From Sediminicola luteus (GTDB taxonomy: Bacteria; Bacteroidota; Bacteroidia; Flavobacteriales; Flavobacteriaceae), in assembly GCF_002514735.1 (NCBI RefSeq), contig NZ_NBWU01000008.1, forward strand, positions 186,001-250,000: a stretch of DNA of 64,000 nt, given 5' to 3'. This document shows positions 5,585 to 24,883 of this stretch, one piece after another. A program made the translations under genes and the position numbers. Each line of letters starts with the position of its first letter. Position 1 is the stretch's first letter. Under the pieces are notes generated by a model. The model ran no database searches. It worked only from the letters and a program-made list of their open reading frames with translations, and had not been told where the DNA came from.

Positions 5585-8500
5585 TTAGCGTACCAATATA
5601 CGAGTGGCTTTTGAGGGGGCATTGCTGAAATATACTTTCAAATAATAAATGCCACTTACTAAATTGTTCAAAGGTATGTTGTACCTACCCGATTCTAAAA
5701 CATCCTTAGGTGTAAAGGTGTAAATGAGTTTGCCCGTAGAGTCATATACACCCAATTTAGTAGGTTCTGTATCATTGCCATAGGAGATATAGGCATGGGC
5801 TACATTACCACTAACCGGGTTTGGTGCAATTTGAACGATGGTGTTACCATTGGTGTTAGGGTTAACGGTAATCGTGAAACTGGCCGTACTGCTTAAACCG
5901 GCTTCGTCGGTAACCGTTAACACCACCTCATAGGTTCCCACTTGGGTAAAGGTGTATTGAGGGTTTTCTTCCGATGAAGTGTCACCAGTGCCAAAATCCC
6001 ATGAATAATTGGTTATACCTATATCGTCAGTCGAACCTTCACTACTGAAAGTAACGGTCAAGGGAACTTTGCCAGAAGCACCATTAGCGGTTATTTGGGC
6101 AACAGGGGCCATGTTTTCAGGGGCATTAACAACAATGGTTAAATTATACGTATCGGTTAGGCCTTCAGCGTCAGAAACGGTTAAAATAGCTTGGAAAGTA
6201 CCACTTTCGGTATATAGATGGGTTGGGTTTTGATCTTGGGAAGTGGTTCCGTCACCAAAGTCCCAATTGTAGTTTTGGATGCCAGCGTCGTCATAAGAGC
6301 CTTCGCTACTAAAAGAAACATTAAGCGGTGCCAAGCCGGTCAAAGGTGTTGCTTGGGCCATGGCGATTGGGGCGGTGTTTTCCATTTCCGAAACCGTAAT
6401 TACGATCTGGTCAGAATCAGTATTGCCGTTGGCATCGGTAACAGTCAAAACAACCGTGTATTGCCCCGCTTGCGCGTAGGTTTTATTCAGAGCGGATTCA
6501 CTGGAGTTGGTCCCATCACCGAAATCCCAAGCATATGTGGTAATTCCTATGTTATCTGACGATTGGCCGGCATCGAAAGCAATGGCCAAAGGTGCAATAC
6601 CGGATGTGGTTGAGCTTGTAATTTTGGCCACAGGAGGGGTGTTGTCCTCTGGCAGATTAACGGTAATACTAGTCTGGGTAGTATTTGAAAGGCCCTCGGC
6701 GTCACTAACAGTTAAACTTACGGTATATTCCCCAGGGGTTTCAAAAGTGATTGTAGCATTTATTTGTTGGGATGTTTCTCCATTCCCAAAATCCCATGTC
6801 TGTGATACAATTTCTTTATCGTCATATGAATCGGAACTACTGAATTGTACAGTCAAAGGGGCTTCGCCTTCAGATTTGTCACTGCTTATTACGGCTACTG
6901 GAGCCGTGTTCGGAACAGGGTCTACAACAATGGTCTGGGTGTCGCTATCGCTTAAATCTTCTTGGTCCCAAACCGTTAGTTTTACTGTATACGTACCCGG
7001 TTCGCTAAAAATCATTGCGGGGTTGCTATCGGTTGAACTTTGCCCATTTCCAAAATCCCATGCATAAGATACGATACCCTTGTCATCCGTAGAGCTGTCG
7101 CTATTAAACTGAACGGATAATGGGGCTACCCCCGTTTCATTATCAACGGTAATCTGGGCCAAAGGAGGAGTGTTGGGTACTTCCCCTACCGAAATAACCA
7201 CATTATCGCTATCACTAGCCCCTTGGGTATCGGTTACTGTAAGGTTGACCGTAAAGTTACCCGATTCCGTAAAGGTGTGGTTAGGATTCGGTTCGTTTGA
7301 TGTATTACCATTTCCAAAATCCCAAAGATAAGTCGTGATTCCTGCGTCGTCAGTTGATAAATCTCCTGTAAATGCTACCGTTAGGGGGGCATTACCATTG
7401 GTGGTATTCGTTTCGATTATGGCTGTTGGCGGATTATTCGGCGGGGCTACGTTAATGGTAACTGAAGCTGAATCTTCTACACCTTCCGTATCGGTTACCG
7501 TTAAAATTACTTCAAACGTACCCCCAGTGGTAAATGTATGAGAAACTTGTTCGCCATTTTCCGTATTCCCATTCCCAAAATTCCATGCATACGCATTTAT
7601 GCCTTCGTCATCAGTGGAATCCGTTCCGTTAAAATTAATGGTCAAAGGTGCTTGCCCGCTTAATATATCGGCTTGGATAACGGCATTAGGTGCTTGGTTA
7701 GGAGCCTCGACATCAATAGTCAATTGTTCGGTATCTTGGGCGCCTTCATTATCGGTAACCGTTAATACTACGGTATAGGTTCCCGGATTAATGAATTGAT
7801 GGGTGGGGTCGGCCTGGTTTGAGGTGTTTCCGTCACCAAAATTCCATTGATAACTACTTATGGCTAGGTCATCTGTTGAACCAGAGCCTGTAAAGTCTAC
7901 ATCCAAAGGCGCAGTACCGCTTAATGTAGAGGCACTCGTGTTTGCCGTTGGAGCGGCATTGGCCCCTACGATTACCTCAATATTTGAAGAACAACCACTG
8001 CTGGAGACCAATTCGTACGTGCCCCCATCTGCGTTTTGTATATTGTTGATTGTTAAGTCACTGCTATTTAATGGTTTATTGTTGCTGTTGGGGCCATTTA
8101 CTGTATACGCCAAGGGGCTACCATTGTTTTGGTTCGGTAACCCGCTGATTACTAGTTTGTCTCCTGGCAAAACACGTACAAAGCTAGAGCCCTCAATAAA
8201 ACCCGAATCGTTTATATTATGTTCAATCCTAAAATTAAGCGCATTACAGCCTACTGTATTTATAGTAAGGTTCAAAGTTTCCGTGCATCCGCTATCGGTG
8301 GTAAAGGTGTATGTACCGCTATCTTGACTAGTGACATTGTTTAGGGTCAACGATTGGGTATCCATAGTCTTTGCATTGCCATTGGCAGCATTGCTGGTCA
8401 CTTGGTAAGACGTACCGGCAGGGCTCAAACGAAGTTCCAAATTGTTCCCTTCGTCCAAGGACAAGGTGTTACCGGTTTGTGTAAAACTACCTTCAGCGTT

Positions 8501-11500
8501 TATTTGATACTCTATTTGCGGGTTTAATGCGGCACAGGAAACGTTAACCGATACTTCAAGTGTGGTAGAACATCCGCTCGCAGTAGTGAAGGTGTAGGTG
8601 CCTGCATCATCAGCAGTTATATTCGTTAGTAATAGATCGTCCGTCCCGTTCGATTTACCGTTTTGATTGGCAGCATTGGAAACTATACTATACGGAATAC
8701 CATTTGGGGCAATACTGAGGTTAAGATTACTGCCAATATCGACAGATACCGAATTTTGACCTGATACCCAAGGGGTCGAATTGATTTGATATTCGGTTTC
8801 TAAGGGTAATGTATTGCAATCTACATCGTTTATCGTGAGCTCAAGAATTTGTGAACACCCTTGGTTGGACATGATGAGGTATTCGCCCTGATGACTCAAA
8901 GGGTCCAGGCTTTCAATTTCGTAATTGTCGGGTACATTAACCCCATTTGGGAGCGTAATAGTGATTTCAAGACTAGGGTCATCGGGAATGGCACTTAATA
9001 CCAATTTGGTTCCCTCGTCCAGCGATAGGCTGTTAGCACCACTTTGCCAGACCCCATTGATTTGATATTGGGTGTTTATTACGGTTTCTCCAGGGTCGCA
9101 ACTGCCCAATACTCTCAATTCAATAGGTGTCGGACAACCATTTTCAGTGGTTAGCACATAGATACCCGAATCAGACACACCTAGTATGCCATCGTCGGCA
9201 TTACCATAAATGCCAGTATCTAGCTTATAAGCATTTTCAGGGTTTGAAAAGTCATTGGAATCAAAAGTAGGGCCATCCATTCGCTGTGTGGTAACAAAAT
9301 ATTGGCCACTATAGTCCTTTGCTCTAATAAAGAGTTCATCGCCCTCTTTGGCCAATATTCTTTTGTTAGTTGATGTTACCCAGTCGCCCCAAGTGCTGCT
9401 GGCAGAATCGTATAATTTGTATTCGACGGTGATTTCGTTGCCACTGCAATCTGGGATATCCGGGTTACCAGTGGCTACCCCCAACTGGTATAGCTGTGAA
9501 ATTTCTTCGGCCCCCAAGGCTACATTGTAAATTTTCAATTCGTCTATTTTACCATCGACCTCGTCGGTAATTTTGCTCATGTTGGCATATGCTTGAATGC
9601 TAACTGGAAATTCGTGAAATTCCCTGTGCTCATAAAAACCAGAAACGGTAAAACTGCTCCGGTCGCCCGAATCTACAAGGTTGATCATGCCAGTCGCGGC
9701 ATTTTTGGCTATTTCTACCCCATTGGCATATATACGGGCGAATTCGCCATCAAAGGTAGCCACGATATGGTTCCAGCCTTCTAAAGGGGCATAGCCCGAA
9801 TAACAATCTACATAGCCATTAGTGGTGCTAAAAGACCACTTGTACAAGGTATTGTGGAATCCGAAAAAAATATTGGGGTAATGATGGCTGACCACCCCTA
9901 CATTCGCAATTTTACCACCGGCTTGTGGAATGGCACTGCCCGTATCGCGCCACACCCAGGCACTTAAGGTAATTTGGCTTTGAGCGGTTTCGAACGAAGT
10001 GTCGTAGGGAATATCGATTAAAGAGTTACTGGTGTGTTCTTTTCCGTCGAACTCGATCGCATTCCCGAAAACCCCGGTAGAGAATTGGTGGTCGTCGGCT
10101 GTTCTTGGTGTACCATCGTCTTCCCGTTCAACAACGGTGCCATCGTTATTATTCGCGGAATCGTCTGATAGTGAGGCGCCCGAATTTTCATCGAACTTCA
10201 TGTCCAAGACCAGATTCGGATTCGAGCTCAAGGGAATGGCATCCCCGATTTTCAATACTTCGGCTATGCTGGGCGTTCCGTTAGCATCTAATGCGAAAAG
10301 CATATAATATCCGGGGGGTAATAGGTTTCTGTCCGGGATGGAAAGTGAATGAGATGTGCCGGAAACCGTATTTAAGGGGATACGGCGTTGTTCATTATTC
10401 GTGGCATGGGTAGCTGCCGAAAACCGGATAAGACTAAATTCGGTGACGTTGGTATTAGTGTTAACGGTAAGCGTTGAATTGTAGTCAACCACGGTTTCGT
10501 TATACGGACCATTGGCATTTCCAGAACTTATCCCTGTTATTTGGGGTCGGGTCGCTAAGTTTCCTGAATTGTCAAAAAGATAGGGGGGGCTATAAATCTC
10601 GGCATCAAAATGGTTCACACATCCCGGATTACTTCCATCACATAATCCGCCGCCTCCTACGAAAACCCGTCCGTCTACCATTAAAATAGCGACACTATGG
10701 TAGGTTCTTGGTTCGTTCATAGTAGCAACATTACGCCATCCGGTGTTTTCGTTATATATTTCAGCACCCATGACCGCGCCAAGGTCTTGAAATACTTCCG
10801 CGCTTTCAATTCCACCCGTAACCAAGACTTCACCATTCGGTAATACGGTACTGTTGTGCATGGTTCTGGCGGCCCCCATATTTCCAGCGAAAGTCACATT
10901 GGGAGTGTTGCCAAAGCTAACCCCGTTTAAATCGATTATAAAAGAACCCTCACGTGCTGGTTTTCCGTTCAGGTGATCGTCGCCATATTCAGGGGCCCCC
11001 CCGGTTTTTAAGATTTTACCTACATCGAACATTACCGTGTTTCCTTTCATGGAATAACCATCAACCTTATTCTGTCCAAGGTCTTGGCGTATCCCCGCAT
11101 CTACGATTAAACCGTTGGGCACATCGACATCGATCCAATGCATCATTTCACTAGGCCCAGCATGAAACAATTTTCCGTTCGGTGCCGGCCATAGCCAAAC
11201 ATGGTTGTCTACCCGGTATAGACCCTGGTCTTCCGAAGCGAGATCGGCCGCGGTATAAATGTCTTCTCCCTGAATGTTGTTCAGGGTAATCCAACCGGTC
11301 AGAGGGGACCATAGTTCGGCATCTTTGCCACCGTTCCGAAATGGGTCGTTGGGGTTATTGCTATTACCATTACTCCATGAACCACCAACGGTAAAAACGG
11401 TACCGTCTTGCAGGGTAACATTGCCTTGATAGCCACGAGGGATGTTCATTTCGGAGGCTACACTCCAAATTCCGGTCTGCGGATCGAAAATACTGGTTCT

Positions 11501-11878
11501 TTCACTTGTTGTTCCCCCAGCAGAAAGCAATCGGCCGTCGGCTAGATTATTTATACCGGGACAGAACATATCGTGATCTGTGTTAATCGTGAATTCTGCA
11601 CCGTCAACCCCTCCCTTACCATCAACGCCACCAAAGGGATCGAAGTATTGGGAAAAGGTAGCCCCATCACCATATTCAATAAAAGTGTTTCTGAACTGCG
11701 ACGACCAACATAGCAGTCGGCCATCGGGCAGGTTGGCCACGGCAACAGGGACGATGCCGAATTCTATTGGCGCACTCCATTGGCCCTGTGTACTAGCATT
11801 TTGGGACCAAATAGTATTTAAGAATAAAAAACAAGAAAGTAGTGTTAATGGTAATTTTCTTTTCATAGTTTCCATCAT
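5585..11878 (-). CDS. Secreted galactose-oxidase-family (AA5) protein with LamG, Ig-like and eight PKD domains, T9SS type A tail
   Basis: The signal peptide is about residues 1-25; the start could also be the ATG at 11866. The AA5 domain (about 30-545) is a kelch propeller plus the C-terminal early-set domain, and keeps the galactose oxidase active site: Cys106 in HDMFCPG and Tyr150 in PRGYQ, 44 residues apart as in the fungal enzyme (thioether cofactor), Trp168 in GGSWS, Tyr393-His394 in RTYHS and His491 in ATHATNNEQRR. A copper-dependent alcohol or sugar oxidation releasing hydrogen peroxide is therefore plausible; the substrate is unknown. The fungal N-terminal carbohydrate-binding domain is absent. 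Next come a LamG lectin-like domain (about 555-800), five Ig-like repeats with SGTYTFTT-like words (about 810-1310), eight PKD domains (about 1312-2010) and a T9SS type A tail (from about 2015). Export to the cell surface is expected. It lies about 200 nt downstream of the priming glycosyltransferase, on the same strand. Confidence 0.9.
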   Translation of the reverse strand: MMETMKRKLPLTLLSCFLFLNTIWSQNASTQGQWSAPIEFGIVPVAVANLPDGRLLCWSSQFRNTFIEYGDGATFSQYFDPFGGVDGKGGVDGAEFTINTDHDMFCPGINNLADGRLLSAGGTTSERTSIFDPQTGIWSVASEMNIPRGYQGNVTLQDGTVFTVGGSWSNGNSNNPNDPFRNGGKDAELWSPLTGWITLNNIQGEDIYTAADLASEDQGLYRVDNHVWLWPAPNGKLFHAGPSEMMHWIDVDVPNGLIVDAGIRQDLGQNKVDGYSMKGNTVMFDVGKILKTGGAPEYGDDHLNGKPAREGSFIIDLNGVSFGNTPNVTFAGNMGAARTMHNSTVLPNGEVLVTGGIESAEVFQDLGAVMGAEIYNENTGWRNVATMNEPRTYHSVAILMVDGRVFVGGGGLCDGSNPGCVNHFDAEIYSPPYLFDNSGNLATRPQITGISSGNANGPYNETVVDYNSTLTVNTNTNVTEFSLIRFSAATHATNNEQRRIPLNTVSGTSHSLSIPDRNLLPPGYYMLFALDANGTPSIAEVLKIGDAIPLSSNPNLVLDMKFDENSGASLSDDSANNNDGTVVEREDDGTPRTADDHQFSTGVFGNAIEFDGKEHTSNSLIDIPYDTSFETAQSQITLSAWVWRDTGSAIPQAGGKIANVGVVSHHYPNIFFGFHNTLYKWSFSTTNGYVDCYSGYAPLEGWNHIVATFDGEFARIYANGVEIAKNAATGMINLVDSGDRSSFTVSGFYEHREFHEFPVSIQAYANMSKITDEVDGKIDELKIYNVALGAEEISQLYQLGVATGNPDIPDCSGNEITVEYKLYDSASSTWGDWVTSTNKRILAKEGDELFIRAKDYSGQYFVTTQRMDGPTFDSNDFSNPENAYKLDTGIYGNADDGILGVSDSGIYVLTTENGCPTPIELRVLGSCDPGETVINTQYQINGVWQSGANSLSLDEGTKLVLSAIPDDPSLEITITLPNGVNVPDNYEIESLDPLSHQGEYLIMSNQGCSQILELTINDVDCNTLPLETEYQINSTPWVSGQNSVSVDIGSNLNLSIAPNGIPYSIVSNAANQNGKSNGTDDLLLTNITADDAGTYTFTTASGCSTTLEVSVNVSCAALNPQIEYQINAEGSFTQTGNTLSLDEGNNLELRLSPAGTSYQVTSNAANGNAKTMDTQSLTLNNVTSQDSGTYTFTTDSGCTETLNLTINTVGCNALNFRIEHNINDSGFIEGSSFVRVLPGDKLVISGLPNQNNGSPLAYTVNGPNSNNKPLNSSDLTINNIQNADGGTYELVSSSGCSSNIEVIVGANAAPTANTSASTLSGTAPLDVDFTGSGSTDDLAISSYQWNFGDGNTSNQADPTHQFINPGTYTVVLTVTDNEGAQDTEQLTIDVEAPNQAPNAVIQADILSGQAPLTINFNGTDSTDDEGINAYAWNFGNGNTENGEQVSHTFTTGGTFEVILTVTDTEGVEDSASVTINVAPPNNPPTAIIETNTTNGNAPLTVAFTGDLSTDDAGITTYLWDFGNGNTSNEPNPNHTFTESGNFTVNLTVTDTQGASDSDNVVISVGEVPNTPPLAQITVDNETGVAPLSVQFNSDSSTDDKGIVSYAWDFGNGQSSTDSNPAMIFSEPGTYTVKLTVWDQEDLSDSDTQTIVVDPVPNTAPVAVISSDKSEGEAPLTVQFSSSDSYDDKEIVSQTWDFGNGETSQQINATITFETPGEYTVSLTVSDAEGLSNTTQTSITVNLPEDNTPPVAKITSSTTSGIAPLAIAFDAGQSSDNIGITTYAWDFGDGTNSSESALNKTYAQAGQYTVVLTVTDANGNTDSDQIVITVSEMENTAPIAMAQATPLTGLAPLNVSFSSEGSYDDAGIQNYNWDFGDGTTSQDQNPTHLYTESGTFQAILTVSDAEGLTDTYNLTIVVNAPENMAPVAQITANGASGKVPLTVTFSSEGSTDDIGITNYSWDFGTGDTSSEENPQYTFTQVGTYEVVLTVTDEAGLSSTASFTITVNPNTNGNTIVQIAPNPVSGNVAHAYISYGNDTEPTKLGVYDSTGKLIYTFTPKDVLESGRYNIPLNNLVSGIYYLKVYFSNAPSKATRILVR
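5840..7950 (-). repeat. Array of eight PKD-domain repeats
   Basis: Eight units of about 87 codons encode PKD domains, each with a proline-rich opening (APxA or PPxA), a W-D/N-F-G-N/D-G core and a closing LTVTD-like strand. They differ from each other in DNA sequence, unlike the repeats of the second oxidase gene. They probably form a rigid stalk between the catalytic part and the sorting tail. Confidence 0.85.
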
Positions 11879-12091: not shown

Positions 12092-13465
12092 TTAAATACC
12101 CCTGGAGAAAAGGACCGTTGTTACGGTCTTGAATATAATCCTGATGTCCAATAAAATAGATTTGTTCTTGATGTAATATAGGTCGTATTCTAATTTTCGA
12201 ATAGAGTCCTCTAAGTTTTCGCCATATTTGTACTTGACCTGTGCCCAGCCAGTTACTCCAGGTTTTACCAAGTGTCTGGTATCATAAAAAGGGGTGACTT
12301 TTTTTAGTTTTTCCACAAACACCTTACGTTCTGGCCTCGGCCCAATAAATACCATATCACCTTTGATCACAGAAAGGATTTGAGGTAATTCGTCAACTCT
12401 AAATTTTCGTAGGATTTTTCCGAACTTGGTTATTCTAGCATCATTTTTTTGTGCCATTTGTGCGCCTTGTTTTTCGGCATTCACTACCATAGAGCGAAAC
12501 TTGTATATTTTGTACTCTTTTCCATATTTACCAACCCGAAGTTGGGTGTAAAAAAGTGGGCCCCTATTGAAGAATACGTTTAAGAACATTACGAAGGGGG
12601 TAACCATAAAAAAAGCGATACCCGTTACCAATGTTAGCGTAAAATTGAAAACGAAACCAGCAATACTCTGTATGTATCTGATTTTTCTGTTTTTTAGTTG
12701 AAGTATTTCATAAATACTGTCATTATGAGAGTCAATGGGTAGCGCCTCGTATACACTTTCGTAAAACGAAGTATAGCTTACAATGTCCTCGCCCCTTAAA
12801 ATGGAATTAACCATTTCGGCTTCCATGAACTTTGAAAAATGGTTGTAATTTCTTGTGTTGATAATCCATGAGCTTACTTGATTTTGCTCTATTTTTTCCA
12901 TTAATTCGGCCGAATCCGAAAACTCATCATTCAGGTGTGATGCCACGACTTTATGATAAGTTTCGGAATCATTACCATTAATCAGGCCAATATTGCGCTC
13001 TAAACTGTTTTTGGTGGTTTCGTCGTAGAGATACAGAACCCTTTTGGTCGTAGGGACGAATTTAAATACGTAATTGAATAATAAGCGCCATAATACAAGT
13101 TGTATGGGGCAAAAAACCAGAAAGACCAAGAGGTGGATTCGCCAATAAGCGAAATCAAAAATTATTGTGGTAATAACGAACTGTGAAACCGTAAATAGGG
13201 TAACAATCGTAAAGACCCTTAATATAGAGACGGATAACGACTTGGGTATTTTCTCTAAATTGTATAGATCGAGTACATAGGATATCACAAAATAACTGAT
13301 TACCCCGATTAAGAAGATGCTGATCTTGGTTGCCGTAAAATCCTCATCTTGATAGTCAATGGCTTGTAAAACAAAGTTTTTAAGGGAAAAGCCAATTAAA
13401 AAAAGATCACCTATAAGAAGTATAGATTTTCGCTCTAATGTATTTAGGATAGACTTATTAGCCAT
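12092..13465 (-). CDS. Exopolysaccharide priming sugar transferase (WbaP/WcaJ type, polyprenyl-phosphate)
   Basis: A 457-residue membrane protein. The N-terminal part has several hydrophobic helices (about 15-160), then a soluble linker domain, one more membrane segment (about 270-295) and the C-terminal bacterial sugar-transferase domain. The latter shows the family signatures KFRSM, the region around KFRVDELPQ, and GPRPER followed by KPGVTGWAQ. Enzymes of this family transfer a sugar-1-phosphate from a nucleotide sugar to undecaprenyl phosphate at the inner membrane, starting a repeat unit. The gene is divergent from the CapD-like gene across a 176-bp gap. It is the only glycosyltransferase in the window, so the other enzymes of the pathway must be encoded elsewhere. 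A TAATTTTG box (13494-13501, minus strand) resembles the Bacteroidota -7 element. Confidence 0.93.
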   Translation of the reverse strand: MANKSILNTLERKSILLIGDLFLIGFSLKNFVLQAIDYQDEDFTATKISIFLIGVISYFVISYVLDLYNLEKIPKSLSVSILRVFTIVTLFTVSQFVITTIIFDFAYWRIHLLVFLVFCPIQLVLWRLLFNYVFKFVPTTKRVLYLYDETTKNSLERNIGLINGNDSETYHKVVASHLNDEFSDSAELMEKIEQNQVSSWIINTRNYNHFSKFMEAEMVNSILRGEDIVSYTSFYESVYEALPIDSHNDSIYEILQLKNRKIRYIQSIAGFVFNFTLTLVTGIAFFMVTPFVMFLNVFFNRGPLFYTQLRVGKYGKEYKIYKFRSMVVNAEKQGAQMAQKNDARITKFGKILRKFRVDELPQILSVIKGDMVFIGPRPERKVFVEKLKKVTPFYDTRHLVKPGVTGWAQVKYKYGENLEDSIRKLEYDLYYIKNKSILLDIRIIFKTVTTVLFSRGI

Positions 13466-13621: not shown

Positions 13622-13641
13622 AGTTGTTAAGAAGCCCTGAA

Positions 13642-15546: not shown

Positions 15547-15551
15547 ATTCC

Positions 15552-16310
15552 ATGAATCGTAAAAACATTCTTCCCCTCGTCATTTTTACCCTTCTTCTTA
15601 TTGGCTGTGCCTCTAAAGAAGAGGTGGTTTATTTTCAAGATGCCAAAGATTATGAGACTCTTGTAAACGATACCCAATACGACTATAAATTTAAGATAGA
15701 TGACGTACTTAGTATACATATTTCTACCTTAGACCCGCAGGCAAGTGTTCCCTTTAATTTGTTTAGAGGAGCACAAGAAGGCGATATTAGACCAGAACAA
15801 GTAGATTATATTATAGATAAAGAAGGAAATATTGATTTTCCCGTGCTTGGTTCTTTAAAAATGGTCGGTTTATCTCCCAGTGAAGCAAAAGAACTTTTGA
15901 GAAATAGGCTGGAAGATTATCTGAAAGACCCAATAATCAATATTCGATTAAAAAATTTCTCGGTTACCGTTTTGGGAGAGGTCAATAGACCTGGAACCTA
16001 TCCGGTCAATGGAGAGCAAATTACCATACTGGAAGCTATTGGTATGGCTAATGACTTAACAATTAAGGGGATGCGGACCAATGTTTTGGTGATTCGCGAC
16101 TTTAATGGTACCAAGGCTTATTACAGAATTGACCTGACTTCAAAGGAATGTTTGGAATCCCCGGTGTATTACCTTACCCAGAACGATGTGGTTTATATAG
16201 AACCGAATAATTCGGCCATAACTTCATCTTCCCTGGATAATAGGGCCACAATTGCGGTTTCCATTGCCTCGTTGTTAATTACTTCCACGGTACTTATTCT
16301 TACCAGATAA
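15552..16310 (+). CDS. Polysaccharide export lipoprotein (Wza-like, Poly_export/SLBB)
   Basis: 252 residues. A lipoprotein signal peptide ends in LLLIGCAS, with the lipid-bearing Cys near residue 19. A polysaccharide export domain follows (IDDVLSIHISTLDP at about 48-61, then IDKEGNIDFPVLGSL), and then an SLBB-type domain (VTVLGEVNRPGTYPV). A hydrophobic C-terminal helix of about 20 residues ends the protein, consistent with outer-membrane insertion as in Wza. It should form the outer-membrane channel for the exported polysaccharide, working with the kinase/co-polymerase encoded 10 nt downstream. The flavobacterial members are shorter than E. coli Wza, and this length is normal for them. Confidence 0.93.
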   Translation: MNRKNILPLVIFTLLLIGCASKEEVVYFQDAKDYETLVNDTQYDYKFKIDDVLSIHISTLDPQASVPFNLFRGAQEGDIRPEQVDYIIDKEGNIDFPVLGSLKMVGLSPSEAKELLRNRLEDYLKDPIINIRLKNFSVTVLGEVNRPGTYPVNGEQITILEAIGMANDLTIKGMRTNVLVIRDFNGTKAYYRIDLTSKECLESPVYYLTQNDVVYIEPNNSAITSSSLDNRATIAVSIASLLITSTVLILTR

Positions 16311-16320
16311 ACTTTAGTTG

Positions 16321-18684
16321 ATGGATGTATTTCAAGAAGGGTTCGGTGATCGAACCGATCTAAAGGAGTTAATTTTCGGTTATCTCAAATATTGGTATTG
16401 GTTTGCCTTAGGGGTATTTTGTATGATAGGTTTGGCCTATGTGTATAACAAGTATTCGGTGCCAAAGTTTGAAGTGAAATCCAAAATACAGATTTTGGAG
16501 GAGAAAGGAGCTTCTCCAGAGATGACGGTTTTTAAGGATTTAAGTTTTTTTTCAGGTAAATCCAACGATGTTTTGGATGAGATTGAGATAATCAATTCCC
16601 GGTCTAATTTTATCCAAGTGGTTCGGCGATTGGGAACTAACGTTGTCTATACGGCTATAGGAGATATTAAGAAAAGTGAGGTGTATAAAGAAACGCCTAT
16701 CAAGGTTAACTTTTTGGCGGCCGATTCATTAATTTATCAATCAAAATTTTCTTTTTTCGTAAAATTAGACTCCAAAAATAGTTTTTCGTACCGAGTCGAA
16801 GAAAGCGACGCCCCGGTCGTTTTTCCATATGGTAAAAATATTGAAACTCCCATTGGCGATATAATCATTACGCCAGACGATCGCTACTTTAATGCGTATC
16901 AAGGGCAATTGCTGAAGATTAGTCTCAACCCCTTGGAAAAAGTAGCCCAAGGCTATAAGAATTTAGTTAAGATTTCGAATATTGAAGAATACTCTAAAAT
17001 CGTAAATCTGGCTATGACACATCCAGTCCCTCAAAAAGCTAGGGATATTCTTAATGAATTGGTCGATGTATACAATCAAAATGCGGTTAATGATAAAAAA
17101 GAGATAGCTGATCGAACTTTTTCTTTTATTAATGAAAGAATCAATAGTATAAGCTCTAATCTTTCTCAAGTAGATCAGAGTGCCCAAGAATTTAAAACGT
17201 CAAGAGGATTGGCAGATATAGGGTCCCAGGCCAATATCAATCTAAACATTGGTGCTGAAAACCAACAATTGTTGGAAAATGCAAGAACCCAGTTGAACAT
17301 GGCATCTTCCATGAAGGGTATCGTAGATGGGGCGGAAGACTTTTCGCAAACTCTACCAGCCAATATTGGTCTTTCCGATCCTTCGGTTACGAATGCCACT
17401 GCAAAATACAACCAACTGGTACAAGAACGTAAAAGACTCTTAAAGAGTTCTAATGAGAAAAACCCTATGATTGTTAATATTGATGATCAATTGAAGGGCA
17501 TAAAAAATAGCTTGCAATCCAGTTTAAATAATACGGTAGGGAATTTAACCTTACAAGTGAATAATCTGAGTACCCAACAATCACGTATCAATTCAAAAAT
17601 ATATTCGGCCCCAAAAAATGAAAGGGCACTTAGGGATATTACCAGAAAGCAAGAAACGACGGAAGCATTATACTTGTTTCTTTTGCAAAGAAGGGAGGAA
17701 TCCCAGGTAGCCTTGGCATCTGCAGCCCCAAAATCTCGGGTTATTGATCGGGCCCATTTAGCTGACGATGCTCCGGTATCTCCCAATAAACCAAAAATTT
17801 ATCTGGCAGCTCTTGTGTTAGGCGTATTGATACCATTTGCGTTCGTACACTTGGCGAAGGTCTTGGACAATAAAATCCATAACATGGCAAGCCTCGAAAA
17901 ATTGGTGAAGAATTATCCGGTTTTGGCCGAATTACCCAAGGTTGATAAAAAGAAGAAAATTGTTTTGGATGGGGACTCTAGATCGGTTCTTTCAGAGTCT
18001 TTACGCATTTTAAGAACGAATTTGGATTATCTAGTAAAATCCGGTCCGGCAGAAGAAAAGAATAATGTGGTATTGATTACCTCAAGTGTTTCGGGAGAAG
18101 GAAAGACATTTGTTTCTTCGAATTTGGCTGCCATTTTTTCCAGTACAGGCAAAAAGGTATTGTTGATTGGTGCCGATATTCGAAATCCTAAAATCCATGA
18201 TTTCTTTGATGGGGGTAGTAAGGAAAAAGCACAATCTCTTGGTTTATCCGAGTATTTGATGGATGAAGCTTTGAATGAAAATGATGTCATCCAGCAAGCC
18301 ACGATCAACGATTATAGAATAGATATAGTATACTCAGGTAAAATATATCCAAATCCCTCTGAGTTGTTGATGCGTGAAAGGATAGAGACCCTTTTGAAAA
18401 AAGTTTCTCAGGAATATGATTATGTAATTGTAGATTCTGCACCATTAATGTTGGTAACCGATACGTTATTGATTACCCCATACACCAACCACACCTTGTA
18501 TGTAACACGAGCCGATGTTACTGAGACTAAAGTGGTAGATTTCCCTATAGCACTGGCTAAGGAAGGGAAGGTTAAAGGCCTTTGTTTTATCGTGAACGAT
18601 GTAAAAGAAGGAAATTTAGGATATGGTGGTAAATATGGATATGGATACGGGATTAAAACTAAAAAATGGTGGCAGTTTGGTTAA
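16321..18684 (+). CDS. Polysaccharide co-polymerase / tyrosine autokinase (Wzc-like, PCP-2a plus BY-kinase)
   Basis: 787 residues from the ATG at 16321; the TTG just before it is in frame but unlikely. Two membrane helices (about 20-40 and 490-510) bracket a periplasmic Wzz-type domain with coiled-coil segments. The cytoplasmic BY-kinase domain has Walker A SGEGKT (near 591), Walker A' LLIGADIRNPK and Walker B VIVDSAP. The C-terminus has a tyrosine cluster (YGGKYGYGYG), the usual autophosphorylation tail. The protein controls chain length and export of polysaccharide with the Wza-like lipoprotein. Cycling of its tyrosine phosphorylation is probably reversed by the PHP phosphatase encoded at 24884-25621. 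The first Asp of Walker A' is Gly here. A strong terminator follows. Confidence 0.94.
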   Translation: MDVFQEGFGDRTDLKELIFGYLKYWYWFALGVFCMIGLAYVYNKYSVPKFEVKSKIQILEEKGASPEMTVFKDLSFFSGKSNDVLDEIEIINSRSNFIQVVRRLGTNVVYTAIGDIKKSEVYKETPIKVNFLAADSLIYQSKFSFFVKLDSKNSFSYRVEESDAPVVFPYGKNIETPIGDIIITPDDRYFNAYQGQLLKISLNPLEKVAQGYKNLVKISNIEEYSKIVNLAMTHPVPQKARDILNELVDVYNQNAVNDKKEIADRTFSFINERINSISSNLSQVDQSAQEFKTSRGLADIGSQANINLNIGAENQQLLENARTQLNMASSMKGIVDGAEDFSQTLPANIGLSDPSVTNATAKYNQLVQERKRLLKSSNEKNPMIVNIDDQLKGIKNSLQSSLNNTVGNLTLQVNNLSTQQSRINSKIYSAPKNERALRDITRKQETTEALYLFLLQRREESQVALASAAPKSRVIDRAHLADDAPVSPNKPKIYLAALVLGVLIPFAFVHLAKVLDNKIHNMASLEKLVKNYPVLAELPKVDKKKKIVLDGDSRSVLSESLRILRTNLDYLVKSGPAEEKNNVVLITSSVSGEGKTFVSSNLAAIFSSTGKKVLLIGADIRNPKIHDFFDGGSKEKAQSLGLSEYLMDEALNENDVIQQATINDYRIDIVYSGKIYPNPSELLMRERIETLLKKVSQEYDYVIVDSAPLMLVTDTLLITPYTNHTLYVTRADVTETKVVDFPIALAKEGKVKGLCFIVNDVKEGNLGYGGKYGYGYGIKTKKWWQFG

Positions 18685-18706: not shown

Positions 18707-18746
18707 AAAAAATCCCGTAGAACCTGATGGTAGTGCGGGATTTTTT
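18707..18746 (+). terminator. Rho-independent terminator of the exopolysaccharide operon
   Basis: A perfect 11-bp inverted repeat (AAAAAATCCCG / CGGGATTTTTT) with an 18-nt loop and a six-T run lies 22 nt after the kinase stop. It ends the three-gene operon and isolates the second oxidase gene, which must have its own promoter. Confidence 0.88.
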
Positions 18747-19015
18747 GTTTGCCTATTGTGCATTAAATTGATATTTGGCATCAATAAGTAGTAACATATG
18801 TTTTCAAGATCAAGGTTTGATTTATTGGGAAAATGAATGCCTTTGTGGTCTTTATTTACCATTAATCCCGAAAAGGTTCCATTTTATCGATTGTTGATAA
18901 TATATGATGGTTTTCATTCTTGTTTTCTAGGTTGTTAGGTGATTTTGCCCTTCATTTGTAACTCTTCCCTACAAATCTGTTTAATAACTAGATGTGAATC
19001 TAATCAACAGTATTC
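18747..19015 (+). other. AT-rich leader region of the second oxidase gene, no gene seen
   Basis: No supported gene lies between the terminator and the ATG at 19016. A TTCATTTG box at 18951-18958 differs from the TAnnTTTG consensus by one base and would give a leader of about 50 nt. I found no clear -33 element or operator-like palindrome. Confidence 0.35.
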
Positions 19016-22000
19016 ATGGGGACATTTTTATCTAAGTATTTTTATTTATTTCTTATTTTTTTCTGTGTTCTAAGCTTACAAGGGCAAAATGAACATAGCT
19101 ATGGAAAATGGAGTGATCCTATACCTTTTGGAATCGTTCCGGTGGCAGTGGCCAATTTACCAGACGGCCGATTGCTTTGTTGGTCCTCACAGTTTAGAAA
19201 TACCTTTATTACCACTGGTGACGGAGCCACTTTTACAGAGATTTTCGACCCCTTCCAAGGTGCTGATGGCATGGCCTTGGGTGAATTTGTTTCGAACACC
19301 AATCATGATATGTTTTGCCCGGGGGTAAATAACCTTCCCGATGGCCGGATTTTAGCGGCTGGGGGTACCACCAGTGAAAAAACCAGTATATATGATTGGC
19401 GTACCGGGTTATGGACTGTTGCCGATGAAATGAATATTCCGAGGGGGTATCAAGGTAATGTAACGCTAAATGATGGTCGGGTTTTTACCGTTGGTGGCTC
19501 ATGGGGAGGCGGGCCTTGGACGAATAGGGATGCCGAGATTTGGAGCGAAGCGACAGGTTGGAAATTATTGACGGGAATCAAAGGGGATGATTTTTATACC
19601 TCGGACGATCTCTTAGGGGATTCTGATGCGCCATTATACCGTGCCGACAACCATATTTGGCTTTGGGGAGCTCCTGATGGATCTCTTTTTCATGCTGGCC
19701 CTAGTGAATTAATGCATTGGATTGATGTTGATGGAAGTGGATCCATGATCAGTGCTGGTTATAGGGCCGACGATACTTTCGCCATGAAGGGTACAACTGT
19801 TATGTTCGACTGGGGTAAAATATTAAAGGTAGGTGGTTCTAAATCTTATGATGATGGTGATATCGCAAACAACAATAGCTATGTTATAGATATTAATGGA
19901 GGGTATGGGTCATTACCAAACGTTGTACGCACCGCTAATAATTTGAGTTTCTCGCGTACCATGCATAATAGTACGGTTCTACCTAACGGCGAAGTATTGG
20001 TTACCGGAGGATTAAATGAGTCGAATCTTTTTACTGATGTCGGGGCCAGATTAACTGCTGAAATTTACAATCCCGATTCTAACCAATGGCGAACTGTAGC
20101 CGGTATGCAAACCCCGCGAACGTATCATAGTGTGGCCATTTTAATGGTAGACGGTAGGGTATTTGTCGGAGGCGGCGGCCTGTGCGATGCGACACCAGGC
20201 TGTGTGAACCATTTTGATGCCGAAATCTATAGCCCACCTTATTTATTTGATTCAAACGGAAATTTGGCCACACGGCCCAATTTGGAAGCCCCCAAAAACA
20301 TGGGGTATGATACTGAGGTAAAAGTTACGGGTAGTAGTAATTTATCCTCATTAAGCTTGGTGCGTTTTTCTTCGGCAACCCATAGTACCAATAATGAACA
20401 GCGACGCATCCCCATTCAATTCAATCCGTTGGGGTCTGGTGAATATATACTTCAAATACCTAATAGAAATGTATTACCCCCTGGGTATTATATGTTGTTT
20501 GCGATGGATACCAATGGGGTTCCATCCATTGCTGAAGTCGTTCAGATAGGAGACTCCTCAGATATTGATGATGCCGATTTGATCGTTTCATTGGATTTTG
20601 AGGAATCTTCAGGAAACCTAGCCTCGGATTCCACCCCAAATGGAAATGATTTCGAAATTAAACAAAGGGATGATAATGGTAATCCAGTTAACCCGACTGA
20701 TCATAACTGGAACGGATCAGGAGTCTTTGGAAAGGCTATGGAATTGGATGGTAAATTCCATAGCAGTAACTCTATTTTGACCCTACCCTATAATAATAAC
20801 ATCGATGATATAGAGGAGGCGGTCACCGTATCGGGTTGGGTATGGCGAGATTCAGGAAGCATGGTTACGCAAACCGGAAAACCTGCCAATGTTGCCGTTT
20901 TTGCACATGATTATCCGGCCATCTTTGGAGGTTTTCATAATTGGTTAATGAAATGGTCTTTTGCAACCGAAAATGGGTTTGTAAATTGTTATGCCGGTCA
21001 TGCTCCATTGGATCAATGGACCCATTATGCGGTAACTTATGATGGCCAAATGGCGCGATTGTATTCTAATGGAATCGAAATTTGTAGCAAGCCGATTACA
21101 GGTAAGATCAGATTAAGGCAAGACGCGACCCCAAATAGTAATTTTACGATTTCCGGTTTCTATGAGCATAGAACCAATTTACCTGTAGTACCCTATGGAA
21201 ATAAAAGTGGGATTACCGATGAGCTCGACGGAAAACTGGATAGATTACAAATCTATAGAAAAGCACTTTCCAGTACCCAAATTAAAGGTTTATATCTTGA
21301 GGGATTAAATACAGGAGTGCCCAATATTCCTGATTGTACCGATAACTTACTAGTGCCCGAGTATAAAATTGGTGATAGCGGTGACTGGAAAATCGGTAAA
21401 CAGGTAAAAGCCCCCTTGGGTAGTAAGGTTTATATTCGAGCTAGGAATAGTAATGGGGAATATTTTATTTCAACATCGGATTATGATGGACCAACATTCA
21501 GTTCGATTCATGATACGGATAAATTGAACAACGATAATGCGTACCAAATCGATACACATGTTTATCATTTCAATAATGCGGAACGGAACAATGGTTTGTT
21601 TGATTTAAGTAATGTTGGGCAATACGCGATTACCAATCGGCAAGGTTGTTCTACGGTAATTACTATAGAAATAGCCGATAATAATGGGGATGATTGCGAA
21701 AACGAAATAATTCCTGAATATAGACTTAATGGAAGTTGGTATTCAGGAAGTTCTGATTTGCAAGTGGAAGAAGGAACTGAGGTTATGTTAAGTATGTTGC
21801 CTAATGGAATTGGATTGGAAATCGAACTTCCAAATGGTGCACGCGTTACCGATAACTTTAATTTAGGGGCTGTTAACACCACCCATAATGGCCTCTACAC
21901 CCTTCGCTCCGCAGAGGGGTGCATTGCTTATATTAATGTAAATGTCGTATCCGATAATTTAAGTCCAAATGCCGTAGCCTCTTCCGATGTTTCTACCGGT

Positions 22001-24883
22001 AGTGCGCCATTAGAGGTTCGGTTTACGGGTAGTGGTTCGATTGACGACCAAGGAATAGTAACCTACCACTGGGATTTCGGCGATGGATCTACCTCCGATA
22101 CCGCCGACCTAGAGCACACTTATACAGGGGCAGGTAGTTATACGGCCACCCTTACCGTAACGGACGGATCGGGACAGAGTTCCCAAGCGAGTATAGGTAT
22201 TACGGTAACTGGATCTGGAGGAGCTGGATGCTCTGGTGTTCCGGTCCCATGGGGTGTTACCGATGTTGGATCGGTAGGTGTGTCTGGCAGTTCCTGTTAT
22301 GATCCCGAAACAGGCCGTTTTGAGCTAGAGGGATCGGGAAGCGATATATGGGGTCTACAAGATAGTTTCCACTATGTGTACCAAGAACTTTCGGGTGATG
22401 GGGAAATGATCGTTCGGGTGGTTTCTATGGACAATACGCATGGTTGGGCCAAAGCGGGGATTATGTTCCGTAATAGCCTGACCCCTAACGCTGCACAGGC
22501 CTTACTTTCGATGCATCCTAATCCAAGGGGTTCAGGCCCGGGTTATACACTACAGCAGCGCGAGACCGATGGAGGCAGTATGAGTTCTTCCAGTTTACAT
22601 AATCTAGGTCCGGTTACGGCCGGATTTCCGAGATATTTGAGAATGGTACGCCAAGGATCACAGATTACGGCCTACGGATCCTCGACAAACGGAAATTGGC
22701 AGGAACTAGGGAGTAGGACGGTATCCTTTGATTACACGATACAGGTCGGGTTAGTGGTAACCTCCCATAACAACACTACACTTAACAAGGCGATATTCGA
22801 AGAGGTTAGTTTGTCCTGGGGGCAGTCAGATCAGTTCCCAAATGCCGTGGTCTCTTCCGATGTTTCTACGGGTAGTGCGCCATTGGAGGTCCGGTTTACG
22901 GGTAGTGGTTCGAGCGACGACCAAGGAATAGTAACCTACCACTGGGATTTCGGCGATGGATCTACTTCCGATATCGCCGATCCGGTACATACCTATACAG
23001 GGGTAGGTAGTTACATGGCCACCCTTACCGTAACGGACGGATCGGGACAGAATTCCCAAGCAAGTTTGGGCATCACGGTAACGGGAGCGGGAGGATCTGG
23101 ATGCTCCGGTGTACCGGCCCCTTGGGGTGTTACCGATGTTGGTTCGGTAGGTGTGTCTGGCAGTTCCTGTTATGATCCCGAAACAGGCCGTTTTGAATTA
23201 GAGGGATCGGGAAGCGATATATGGGGCCTACAAGATAGTTTCCACTATGTGTACCAAGAACTTTCGGGTGATGGGGAAATGATCGTTCGGGTGGTTTCTA
23301 TGGACAATACGCATGGTTGGGCCAAAGCGGGGATTATGTTCCGTAATAGCCTGACCCCTAACGCTGCACAGGCCTTACTTTCGATGCATCCTAATCCAAG
23401 GGGTTCAGGCCCGGGTTATACACTACAGCAGCGCGAGACCGATGGAGGCAGTATGAGTTCTTCCAGTTTACATAATCTAGGTCCGGTTACGGCCGGATTT
23501 CCGAGATATTTGAGAATGGTACGCCAAGGATCACAGATTACGGCCTACGGATCCTCGACAAACGGAAATTGGCAGGAACTAGGGAGTAGGACGGTATCCT
23601 TTGATTACACGATACAGGTCGGGTTAGTGGTAACCTCCCATAACAACACTACACTTAACAAGGCGATATTCGAAGAGGTTAGTTTGTCCTGGGGGCAGTC
23701 AGATCAGTTCCCAAATGCCGTGGTCTCTTCCGATGTTTCTACGGGTAGTGCGCCATTGGAGGTCCGGTTTACGGGTAGTGGTTCGAGCGACGACCAAGGA
23801 ATAGTAACCTACCACTGGGATTTCGGCGATGGATCTACTTCCGATATCGCCGATCCGGTACATACCTATACAGGGGTAGGTAGTTACATGGCCACCCTTA
23901 CCGTAACGGACGGATCGGGACAGAATTCCCAAGCAAGTTTGGGCATCACGGTAACGGGAGCGGGAGGATCTGGATGCTCCGGTGTACCGGCCCCTTGGGG
24001 TGTTACCGATGTTGGTTCGGTAGGTGTGTCTGGCAGTTCCTGTTATGATCCCGAAACAGGCCGTTTTGAATTAGAGGGATCGGGAAGCGATATATGGGGC
24101 CTACAAGATAGTTTCCACTATGTGTACCAAGAACTTTCGGGTGATGGGGAAATGATCGTTCGGGTGGTTTCTATGGACAATACGCATGGTTGGGCCAAAG
24201 CGGGGATTATGTTCCGAAATAGCCTGACCCCTAACGCTGCACAGGCCTTACTTTCGATGCATCCTAATCCAAGGGGTTCAGGCCCGGGTTATACACTACA
24301 GCAGCGCGAGACCGATGGAGGCAGTATGAGTTCTTCTTCCCTTCACAATATAGGTCCGGTTACGGCCGGATTTCCGAGATATTTGAGAATGGTACGCCAA
24401 GGATCACAGATTACGGCCTACGGATCATCGACAAAGGGGAACTGGCAGGAGCTAGGAAGTAGGACGGTATCCTTTAATCACACGATACAGGTTGGGTTAG
24501 TGGTTACCTCCCATAACAACACTGCCCTGAACAAGGCGGTATTCGAAGATTTGGAGTTGAACGCTACACAGGCTACGGCATTAACTATGAAATTAGGAGT
24601 TGAATATCAAGAACCTGAAATTATATCTGAAACTCTTGAAATAATACCTAACCCGGCAAGTAATCAAGTTAAATTGACTTTGATAAATTCGAATAAAGCT
24701 GATGTTCTTGTTTTTAATTCTGTAGGGGTTATGGTAATGCAGGCGATTGATACCGAGAATAAGATTTCTAATGGTGGGATTACCTTGGAAATATCACATT
24801 TATCCGATGGAACTTATTTTGTGGTAGTAGATGATGGTTTAGGGCAAAAACATGAAAAACAGTTGATTATCAGACCCGAATAA
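19016..24883 (+). CDS. Second secreted galactose-oxidase-family (AA5) protein with three PKD plus concanavalin-A-like units and T9SS type A tail
   Basis: 1955 residues with a signal peptide (about 1-24). The AA5 domain (about 25-530) is a clear paralogue of the first oxidase and keeps the same catalytic set: Cys101 (HDMFCPG), Tyr145 (PRGYQ), Trp163 (GGSWG), Tyr370-His371 (RTYHS) and His456 (ATHSTNNEQRR). A LamG domain (about 525-760) and two Ig-like repeats follow. Then come three copies of a 291-residue unit made of one PKD domain and one concanavalin-A-like domain of the DUF1349 kind (words PWGVTDVGSVG, GSDIWGLQDSFHYVYQ, GWAKAGIMFRN). The end is a T9SS type A tail (PNPASNQVKLTL onward). It sits between the kinase and phosphatase genes of the polysaccharide locus, which suggests a role on the exported glycan. 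The substrate is unknown. Its stop codon directly abuts that of the convergent phosphatase gene. Confidence 0.9.
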   Translation: MGTFLSKYFYLFLIFFCVLSLQGQNEHSYGKWSDPIPFGIVPVAVANLPDGRLLCWSSQFRNTFITTGDGATFTEIFDPFQGADGMALGEFVSNTNHDMFCPGVNNLPDGRILAAGGTTSEKTSIYDWRTGLWTVADEMNIPRGYQGNVTLNDGRVFTVGGSWGGGPWTNRDAEIWSEATGWKLLTGIKGDDFYTSDDLLGDSDAPLYRADNHIWLWGAPDGSLFHAGPSELMHWIDVDGSGSMISAGYRADDTFAMKGTTVMFDWGKILKVGGSKSYDDGDIANNNSYVIDINGGYGSLPNVVRTANNLSFSRTMHNSTVLPNGEVLVTGGLNESNLFTDVGARLTAEIYNPDSNQWRTVAGMQTPRTYHSVAILMVDGRVFVGGGGLCDATPGCVNHFDAEIYSPPYLFDSNGNLATRPNLEAPKNMGYDTEVKVTGSSNLSSLSLVRFSSATHSTNNEQRRIPIQFNPLGSGEYILQIPNRNVLPPGYYMLFAMDTNGVPSIAEVVQIGDSSDIDDADLIVSLDFEESSGNLASDSTPNGNDFEIKQRDDNGNPVNPTDHNWNGSGVFGKAMELDGKFHSSNSILTLPYNNNIDDIEEAVTVSGWVWRDSGSMVTQTGKPANVAVFAHDYPAIFGGFHNWLMKWSFATENGFVNCYAGHAPLDQWTHYAVTYDGQMARLYSNGIEICSKPITGKIRLRQDATPNSNFTISGFYEHRTNLPVVPYGNKSGITDELDGKLDRLQIYRKALSSTQIKGLYLEGLNTGVPNIPDCTDNLLVPEYKIGDSGDWKIGKQVKAPLGSKVYIRARNSNGEYFISTSDYDGPTFSSIHDTDKLNNDNAYQIDTHVYHFNNAERNNGLFDLSNVGQYAITNRQGCSTVITIEIADNNGDDCENEIIPEYRLNGSWYSGSSDLQVEEGTEVMLSMLPNGIGLEIELPNGARVTDNFNLGAVNTTHNGLYTLRSAEGCIAYINVNVVSDNLSPNAVASSDVSTGSAPLEVRFTGSGSIDDQGIVTYHWDFGDGSTSDTADLEHTYTGAGSYTATLTVTDGSGQSSQASIGITVTGSGGAGCSGVPVPWGVTDVGSVGVSGSSCYDPETGRFELEGSGSDIWGLQDSFHYVYQELSGDGEMIVRVVSMDNTHGWAKAGIMFRNSLTPNAAQALLSMHPNPRGSGPGYTLQQRETDGGSMSSSSLHNLGPVTAGFPRYLRMVRQGSQITAYGSSTNGNWQELGSRTVSFDYTIQVGLVVTSHNNTTLNKAIFEEVSLSWGQSDQFPNAVVSSDVSTGSAPLEVRFTGSGSSDDQGIVTYHWDFGDGSTSDIADPVHTYTGVGSYMATLTVTDGSGQNSQASLGITVTGAGGSGCSGVPAPWGVTDVGSVGVSGSSCYDPETGRFELEGSGSDIWGLQDSFHYVYQELSGDGEMIVRVVSMDNTHGWAKAGIMFRNSLTPNAAQALLSMHPNPRGSGPGYTLQQRETDGGSMSSSSLHNLGPVTAGFPRYLRMVRQGSQITAYGSSTNGNWQELGSRTVSFDYTIQVGLVVTSHNNTTLNKAIFEEVSLSWGQSDQFPNAVVSSDVSTGSAPLEVRFTGSGSSDDQGIVTYHWDFGDGSTSDIADPVHTYTGVGSYMATLTVTDGSGQNSQASLGITVTGAGGSGCSGVPAPWGVTDVGSVGVSGSSCYDPETGRFELEGSGSDIWGLQDSFHYVYQELSGDGEMIVRVVSMDNTHGWAKAGIMFRNSLTPNAAQALLSMHPNPRGSGPGYTLQQRETDGGSMSSSSLHNIGPVTAGFPRYLRMVRQGSQITAYGSSTKGNWQELGSRTVSFNHTIQVGLVVTSHNNTALNKAVFEDLELNATQATALTMKLGVEYQEPEIISETLEIIPNPASNQVKLTLINSNKADVLVFNSVGVMVMQAIDTENKISNGGITLEISHLSDGTYFVVVDDGLGQKHEKQLIIRPE
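21962..24571 (+). repeat. Three tandem 873-nt coding repeats, two almost identical
   Basis: The same words recur every 873 nt (291 codons), for example around 22826 and 23699. Copies 2 and 3 appear identical for about 519 nt (22825-23343 against 23698-24216), including third positions. Copy 1 differs mainly in its PKD half, and its concanavalin-A-like half is nearly identical to copy 2. This points to recent duplication or ongoing gene conversion. It could also cause assembly errors in copy number. Confidence 0.92.

Follow-up and report, generated by a model that had tools for sequence, protein, structure and literature searches.

Galactose-oxidase-like proteins encoded beside an exopolysaccharide exporter in Sediminicola luteus, other Flavobacteriaceae and Cupriavidus

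Comparative evidence gives good support to a tie between galactose-oxidase-like proteins of family AA5 and an exopolysaccharide exporter, and this linkage is conserved in two phyla. In Sediminicola luteus, two such proteins (AA5a and AA5b), both with intact active-site residues and T9SS sorting domains, are encoded on either side of a Wza/Wzc-type export module. The position after wzc is exchangeable among related loci, where it holds a giant protein of the AA5, GSDH-head (glucose/sorbosone dehydrogenase) or kelch/malectin type. Accounts of bacterial polysaccharide assembly usually stop at export, and little is known, to our knowledge, about what bacterial galactose oxidases do in nature. Recurrence of the pairing in relatives and in Cupriavidus suggests that some bacteria oxidize their own slime after synthesis, and we lean, with modest confidence, towards AA5a and AA5b being surface enzymes that oxidize the cell's own newly exported polysaccharide as galactose-oxidase-type copper-radical enzymes.

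Two galactose-oxidase-like genes in an exopolysaccharide locus

The window, i.e. the whole stretch of 64,000 nt analyzed here (contig NZ_NBWU01000008.1, positions 186,001 to 250,000), contains two large ORFs whose products we call AA5a (5585-11878, minus strand) and AA5b (19016-24883, plus strand). An initial annotation had placed the two ORFs exactly there, with a priming transferase, a CapD-like protein, Wza and Wzc between them and a PHP phosphatase following, and the domain scan bore this arrangement out. The features are as follows.

1..5457, minus strand: large repeat-rich protein with Ig_7 and HpiC1-like domains, running off the window (domain scans)
5585..11878, minus strand: AA5a, galactose-oxidase-like, T9SS-type (ORF of 2097 aa; domain scans)
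5621..5824, minus strand: T9SS type A sorting domain of AA5a (TIGR04183 and Pfam scores)
9497..10018, minus strand: Laminin_G_3 (lectin-like) domain of AA5a (domain scan)
10241..11803, minus strand: catalytic region of AA5a, kelch propeller plus E-set (C106, Y150, W168, R222, Y393, H394, H491)
12092..13465, minus strand: priming sugar-phosphate transferase, Bac_transf (domain scan)
13624..15546, plus strand: CapD-like nucleotide-sugar dehydratase, Polysacc_synt_2 (domain scan)
15552..16310, plus strand: Wza-like outer-membrane export lipoprotein (the genome's sole PF02563 match)
16318..18684, plus strand: Wzc-like co-polymerase/tyrosine kinase (domain scan)
18707..18746, plus strand: terminator-like inverted repeat followed by T, in the gap between Wzc and AA5b (read by eye)
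19016..24883, plus strand: AA5b, galactose-oxidase-like, T9SS-type (ORF of 1955 aa; domain scans)
19091..20551, plus strand: catalytic region of AA5b (C101, Y145, W163, R209, Y370, H371, H456; AlphaFold2 pLDDT 92)
20780..21286, plus strand: Laminin_G_3 domain of AA5b (domain scan)
24641..24871, plus strand: T9SS type A sorting domain of AA5b (TIGR04183 and Pfam)
24884..25651, minus strand: CpsB/CapC-type PHP phosphatase (domain scan)

The Bac_transf gene lies 213 bases upstream of AA5a on the same strand, while AA5b is located between Wzc and CpsB, its stop codon abutting that of the CpsB-type phosphatase gene. Co-transcription of AA5b with Wzc is not implied, given the terminator-like hairpin that separates them; its loop exceeds the limit of our terminator scan. 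Genome-wide, there are two PF09118 genes and a single PF02563 wza, and all three are neighbors with one AA5 gene on either side of wza—an adjacency that is not chance. Regulatory scans remained at or below background: the motif TANNTTTG, which we take to be the Bacteroidota promoter element, matched 65 times (64.9 expected), so a match ~34 bases before AA5a was disregarded, and scans for sigma-70 promoters and terminators returned 28 (37.5 expected) and 13 (12.6 expected) hits, respectively.

The exopolysaccharide locus extends to the left beyond the window, where the adjoining 20 kb (L137) hold 18 ORFs. Ten of these were scanned; among their products are a Wzx-type Polysacc_synt_3 protein, a hexapeptide transferase, two acyltransferases and four glycosyltransferases (two of group 1, two of family 2). 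A 395-aa ORF with no Pfam match (L137:5896-7080) may encode Wzy, but is no more than a candidate. Parts of a Wzx/Wzy-dependent locus—priming transferase, Wzx, Wzc, Wza and phosphatase—are thus present. Further left, past the glycosyltransferases, lies a carbamoyltransferase gene and, ~23 kb left of the window, a gene whose 1252-aa product has a GSDH head and ends in a T9SS tail. Relatives of the repeat-rich protein at 1..5457 are encoded near AA5 in three other loci (L039, L065, L079).

Domain architecture and active sites of AA5a and AA5b

Both proteins share one architecture: AA5 and E-set (PF09118) domains come first, followed by Laminin_G_3, by PKD and further repeats and by a T9SS sorting domain. 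A hydrophobic leader, recognized by eye, opens each protein and the galactose-oxidase domain begins within ~30 residues of the start, leaving no room for an N-terminal carbohydrate-binding domain such as that of the fungal galactose oxidase GaoA. The T9SS tails reported in the initial annotation were recovered with TIGR04183 (24.6 bits for AA5a and 32.5 for AA5b; cut-off 23), while the Pfam model Por_Secre_tail (cut-off 27) placed AA5a just below (25.6) and AA5b above (41.8) its threshold. The T9SS translocon SprA is encoded in the genome.

A kelch propeller followed by an E-set, the arrangement that defines the AA5 fold, was found by both domain scan and modeling. The AA5a domain matched the galactose oxidase entries 9g8h/9g43 with a phmmer E-value of 1.6e-103, and the AA5 domains of the two proteins are 47-49% identical to this solved bacterial enzyme. 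For the AA5b catalytic domain, an AlphaFold2 model (pLDDT 92) superimposed best on the galactose oxidase of Pseudoarthrobacter siccitolerans (Z 61, rmsd 1.3-1.4, 48% identity), followed by GaoA (Z about 59) and GlxA (Z 44, 26% identity).

To compare active sites, AA5a and AA5b were aligned with bacterial AA5 sequences (83 rows, references aside) and numbered after GaoA. All the residues named in the initial annotation were present in both proteins (given as AA5a/AA5b): the cysteine and tyrosine of the cofactor pair (Cys228 = C106/C101, Tyr272 = Y150/Y145), whose cross-link is a prediction from the residues seen, the stacked tryptophan (Trp290 = W168/W163) and, together with Tyr272, the copper ligands Tyr495 (Y393/Y370), His496 (H394/H371) and His581 (H491/H456). 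C228, Y272, W290, Y495, H496, H581 and F464 were conserved in 83 of 83 bacterial rows. With cofactor and copper residues kept and the fold matched, the radical chemistry of AA5a and AA5b is very likely intact. Estimates of dN/dS ranged from about 0.03 to 0.15 in the four of six ortholog pairs tried whose synonymous change was unsaturated, as expected under purifying selection; two window ortholog pairs were saturated and are not part of this range.

The substrate pocket was conserved in part. We take R330, F194, F464, Q406 and F441 to be the galactose contacts of GaoA. The first three are present in AA5a and AA5b; R330 is conserved in 76 of the 83 rows and in all 30 flavobacterial rows linked to exopolysaccharide (EPS) genes, F464 likewise in all 30, and F194 in 23, with Trp or Tyr instead in the other seven. 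Gln406, in contrast, is replaced by Gly or Asp in the two proteins (Gln occurs in one of the 83 rows) and Phe441 is Met in both, so galactose itself may not be the substrate.

Among characterized enzymes, GaoA (subfamily AA5_2, from Fusarium, 1gof) resembles AA5a and AA5b in its kelch propeller plus E-set, in the cofactor and copper residues and in R330, F194 and F464, at 41-42% identity (to the 6xlt chain), but differs at Gln406 and Phe441 and lacks the added LamG, PKD and T9SS modules. The P. siccitolerans enzyme (9g43/9g8h), the closest solved structure, likewise has no Gln406 (Asp instead), yet keeps Phe441, and its chain ends at the E-set without an added tail.

The initial annotation had drawn a close analogy to GlxA, which in Streptomyces works with the synthase CslA on a surface glucan and is needed for full CslA activity, its redox role still being a proposal in that report (PMC11022532). 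The two systems are alike insofar as an AA5 radical copper oxidase is tied to a surface glycan. Otherwise the analogy was not supported: AA5a and AA5b score 124 and 132 bits against the GlxA model NF052501 (NCBIfam; cut-off 800), the fold comparison places them far closer to galactose oxidase, and the neighboring ORFs that were scanned include no cellulose-synthase-like partner gene. GlxA is anchored in the membrane and partners a cellulose synthase, whereas AA5a and AA5b have T9SS tails and belong to a Wzx/Wza-type locus. A GlxA-type reading was rejected on the low NF052501 score and the fold comparison, and the two proteins are galactose-oxidase-like. Hence the overall interpretation of the initial annotation stands as to the link with an exopolysaccharide locus, but not as to the likeness to GlxA.

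Other bacterial examples are known. FbfB of Stigmatella aurantiaca, a galactose-oxidase-like protein, is needed for fruiting bodies and its gene adjoins a glycosyltransferase gene; likened here by description only, it differs in being a single gene, with no export module in the parts of that description consulted (PMC3543389). Bacterial enzymes are said to be among those AA5 members that fall outside subfamilies 1 and 2 (PMC11267884), and CAZyme annotation is reported to record AA5 in Zobellia strains (PMC6950322). Among the matches listed in a search of titles in the open-licence literature, no paper dealt with AA5 in a flavobacterial exopolysaccharide locus.

AA5 genes are linked to an export module in two phyla

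Of 397 genomes of the family, 17 have PF09118; a set of 395 genomes taken from the class gave two with a close AA5, one of them being the genome that contains the window. Fourteen of the 17 were used further, as two (G336, G120) are without the AA5 Cys-Tyr motifs and one (G194) was left out. Each of the 14 carries one to three wza genes. In eight, no more than 10 kb separates an AA5 gene from a wza, compared to 0.19 genomes expected by random placement (P 2e-12, uncorrected for shared ancestry). Neither AA5 nor GSDH genes occurred at the remaining 13 wza loci of these genomes, implying a link to one export module rather than to polysaccharide export in general. The sole ORF over 1,500 aa in those 13 loci is of NRPS/PKS type and unrelated (L131). 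Genome G075, which is not among the 17 PF09118 genomes and hence outside the 14, carries an AA5 fragment of 264 aa next to the export module, where the contig ends (L148).

In a public genome set, the best 80 of 328 matching stretches yielded 71 named loci, 21 of which had Wza or Wzc in the fetched flanks, including 19 of the 48 in a Flavobacteriia block (L047-L094) that spans Muricauda, Croceivirga, Flagellimonas, Croceitalea, Kriegella, Pelagihabitans, Maribacter and uncultured relatives. As named loci and family genomes overlap (e.g. L055 and L027, both Kriegella aquimaris), the two sets of counts are not additive. No relative of the proteins was found in viral contigs.

Linkage recurs outside the Bacteroidota. 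Among 60 genomes from the genus of Cupriavidus sp. YR651 (G397; Betaproteobacteria), eight possess a close AA5 (nine copies), within 8 kb of wza in six and within 6 kb of a Wzc-type GNVR gene in seven; in the remaining genome, G453, AA5 is near neither. The single PF02563 match of strain YR651 is the AA5-linked wza. Because these genomes share ancestry, they were counted as one further lineage. The conservation in relatives on which the initial annotation had staked its pairing thus holds for 8 of 14 genomes and several flavobacterial genera, and extends to Cupriavidus.

On an AA5 tree (leaving out L108, which is partial, and L089, identical to L083), all 30 EPS-linked flavobacterial rows fell into one clade of 39 (support 100/98) that also holds nine rows from other settings, and the EPS label required six changes, as opposed to an average of 24.8 over shuffles (0 of 500 as low). 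Two Cupriavidus rows lay outside the flavobacterial clade. AA5a and AA5b belong to separate lineages; both have orthologs adjacent to export genes in Muricauda, Croceitalea and Croceivirga, while Maribacter and genome G395 have duplicate AA5 pairs of their own. The oxidase pairs beside the export module thus seem to have more than one origin, unless an older pair is masked by gene conversion.

AA5 genes also occur away from wza. In the commonest other setting (15 named loci), AA5 adjoins an ECF-sigma operon that neighbors glycogen-type genes; L104 was left out of this count, its ECF match being only 28% identical. Five named loci, four from Gelidibacter and one from Winogradskyella, have AA5 beside bshC (identified by Pfam for L088 and by BLAST for four). 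Of the 21 named loci outside the Flavobacteriia groups above (from Saprospiraceae, Leucothrix and others), only seven of which are 20 kb or longer, the two from Cupriavidus were the only ones in which Wza/Wzc was seen. GSDH genes were found near AA5 in several loci without wza.

We then considered the export module independently of its oxidase, reading 74 loci from the best-scoring 74 of 125 genomes with a window-type Wza. The ORF after Wzc encoded an AA5 protein in four and a GSDH-head protein in 16 (about 1,800-2,300 aa where whole; 15 called by script plus L151, where a short ORF intervenes, and including L157, present as a 165-aa piece at a contig end). In another ten it encoded a non-AA5 kelch/malectin protein (about 2,200-2,350 aa, several being cut by the end of the fetched stretch). 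None of these three proteins followed Wzc in 42 loci, and two were cut off. AA5 was present on the other side of the module in eight loci and on at least one side in nine, L148 being counted on its 264-aa piece. Found in only nine of 74 related export loci, AA5 is evidently optional.

CBM6 and malectin domains were present in four of four GSDH-class proteins scanned and malectin in two of three of the kelch class, the rest of either class being assigned by BLAST. Por_Secre_tail scored 31.6 bits in one of three whole-scanned GSDH proteins and, below the cut-off of 27, 25.2 and 24.2 in the others; in the kelch class it was found in one of three scanned (29.7), the other two proteins being cut. 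With the GSDH head of L119, matches were obtained to 2ism, a putative oxidoreductase (E 5e-23), to the glucose dehydrogenase 7cdy (E 3e-13) and to soluble quinoprotein glucose dehydrogenase (E 3e-09); Hedgehog-interacting protein, a non-enzyme, matched weakly (E 9e-05). As the N-terminal part of the kelch/malectin proteins bears only a distant resemblance to GSDH (hhalign probability 91, E 9e-7) and no solved structure matched at E 0.1, this class was not called an oxidoreductase.

None of the nine AA5 loci had a GSDH or kelch protein after Wzc (72 informative loci; P 0.013), but four of them exclude these proteins by definition, since the position is shared, and the other five alone give P 0.08. 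Given this and shared ancestry, mutual exclusion of AA5 and GSDH/kelch proteins is only suggestive.

Proposed oxidation of the exported polysaccharide and rival readings

We infer the following scheme from the gene content. The polymer would be built on a lipid carrier, flipped, polymerized and exported via Wzc and Wza, with T9SS delivering AA5a and AA5b to the cell surface near the Wza exporter. There, the lectin-like modules could hold the newly exported polysaccharide while the copper-radical site would convert primary alcohols of the polymer to aldehydes, with release of H2O2. The most likely target would be the C6 hydroxyl of galactose- or N-acetylgalactosamine-type residues. The resulting aldehydes may hydrate or form hemiacetal or Schiff-base links, giving a stiffer or attached coat. 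Genes for UDP-glucose dehydrogenase, an epimerase and a DegT aminotransferase lie around many of these loci; one may speculate from them that the polymer contains uronic acids and amino sugars, the latter as possible partners for aldehydes.

The oxidases might instead forage or attack, acting on foreign galactans such as algal polysaccharides or host glycans, with a shared role in surface colonization as the connection to the exporter. Many relatives belong to marine and alga-associated genera, and both the lectin-like modules and the existence of AA5 genes away from wza would fit such a lifestyle. However, among 20 window ORFs scanned (5585 to 39209) there was no glycoside hydrolase, polysaccharide lyase or SusD, only one TonB-dependent-receptor-type barrel (32101-34515). 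Moreover, AA5 is tied to one particular export module and was not seen at the 13 other wza loci of the 14 AA5-bearing genomes, and the tie recurs in Cupriavidus. We therefore regard this explanation as unlikely.

Less probable still is a purely structural part as a surface lectin, in which the propeller would anchor or organize the polysaccharide and catalysis would be incidental. A non-AA5 kelch/malectin protein at the position after wzc in 10 of 74 loci is in keeping with this, as is the description of GlxA as needed for full CslA activity with a redox role that is still a proposal (PMC11022532). Strict retention of all copper and cofactor residues in 83 rows, on the other hand, would be unexpected of a lectin.

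Quite improbable, in our estimation, is a peroxide weapon or signal, with H2O2 formed from passing alcohols deterring biofilm competitors. AA5 reactions of this type do release H2O2 and the active site is intact, but the specific link to Wza, Wzc and CpsB would be left unexplained, as would the dehydrogenase-type protein at the same position in related loci, since a dehydrogenase of the GSDH type is not a peroxide producer. That genes for large secreted proteins simply landed beside an export locus, as AA5 genes at other sites in many genomes might suggest, is for practical purposes refuted by the linkage count (8 of 14 genomes vs. 0.19 expected), the tree (six label changes vs. a shuffled mean of 24.8, 0 of 500 as low) and the separate recurrence in Cupriavidus.

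Oxidation of self-made polysaccharide by AA5a and AA5b may be one instance of something broader, although we advance this only tentatively. Many flavobacterial export loci would have an exchangeable slot for a giant polymer-processing surface protein, which in part of the family would be a redox enzyme, namely a copper-radical galactose oxidase in some loci and a quinoprotein-type sugar dehydrogenase in others. Coat assembly might then include, as a general step, oxidative maturation outside the cell, reached separately in Flavobacteriaceae, in Cupriavidus and, via GlxA, in Streptomyces. With a copper-radical oxidase conserved next to a Wza/Wzc exporter, the idea of such extracellular maturation can be tested directly, e.g. 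in named strains of Maribacter, Croceitalea or Kriegella. If true, these would be enzymes that place aldehydes at defined places on polysaccharides.

AA5 genes in relatives

A single contig of Croceivirga lutea (loci L048 and L079) carried two separate export modules with one galactose-oxidase-type (AA5) gene in each, and each of these genes matched one of the two window copies. In a genome from another family of the class, two AA5 genes lay ~5 kb apart (G777:C1:1184904-1192441).

AA5 genes also occurred in other settings. In the relatives' loci L031, L033-L036, L040, L041, L044 and L046, AA5 had an ECF-type sigma factor gene at its side, together with genes for a DUF2807 protein and two uncharacterised proteins; this operon may serve control or sensing of the secreted oxidase. 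Directly upstream of AA5 in L049, L050 and L108, with no wza in view, was a gene for a GINT1_N-type glycosyltransferase. The AA5 matches in several relatives ended at contig ends, perhaps because repeat tails like that of AA5b, the window copy between Wzc and CpsB, break assemblies.

GSDH proteins and the left flank

AA5 genes had proteins with glucose/sorbosone-dehydrogenase-type (GSDH) domains nearby, again with no wza in view, in L060, L062, L081, L084, L088 and L089; the two types are thus frequently neighbours. The chromosomal stretch around the window (G000:C6) encodes a GSDH protein, and the window's left flank holds the remaining part of the exopolysaccharide locus:

L143:13151-16909 (G000:C6, ~23 kb left of the window): protein of 1252 aa that combines a GSDH head with a T9SS tail, adjoining a carbamoyltransferase gene
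G000:C6:166001-186000 (L137, left of the window): glycosyltransferases, a Wzx-type protein and acyltransferases (10 of 18 ORFs scanned)

A 395-aa ORF of L137, without a Pfam match, is a possible candidate for Wzy.

AA5b tail and a barrel-like protein

By eye, the AA5b tail (window ~22200-24600) comprises three near-identical blocks, each a PKD plus DUF1349-like repeat, which apparently reflect a recent internal duplication. To the right of CpsB lies a further gene:

Window 25689-26240 (-): 183-aa protein, resembling an outer-membrane barrel by eye

Its leader is followed by a His-rich stretch, and it matched neither Pfam nor NCBIfam. This protein could possibly be a metal-binding partner of the copper enzymes.
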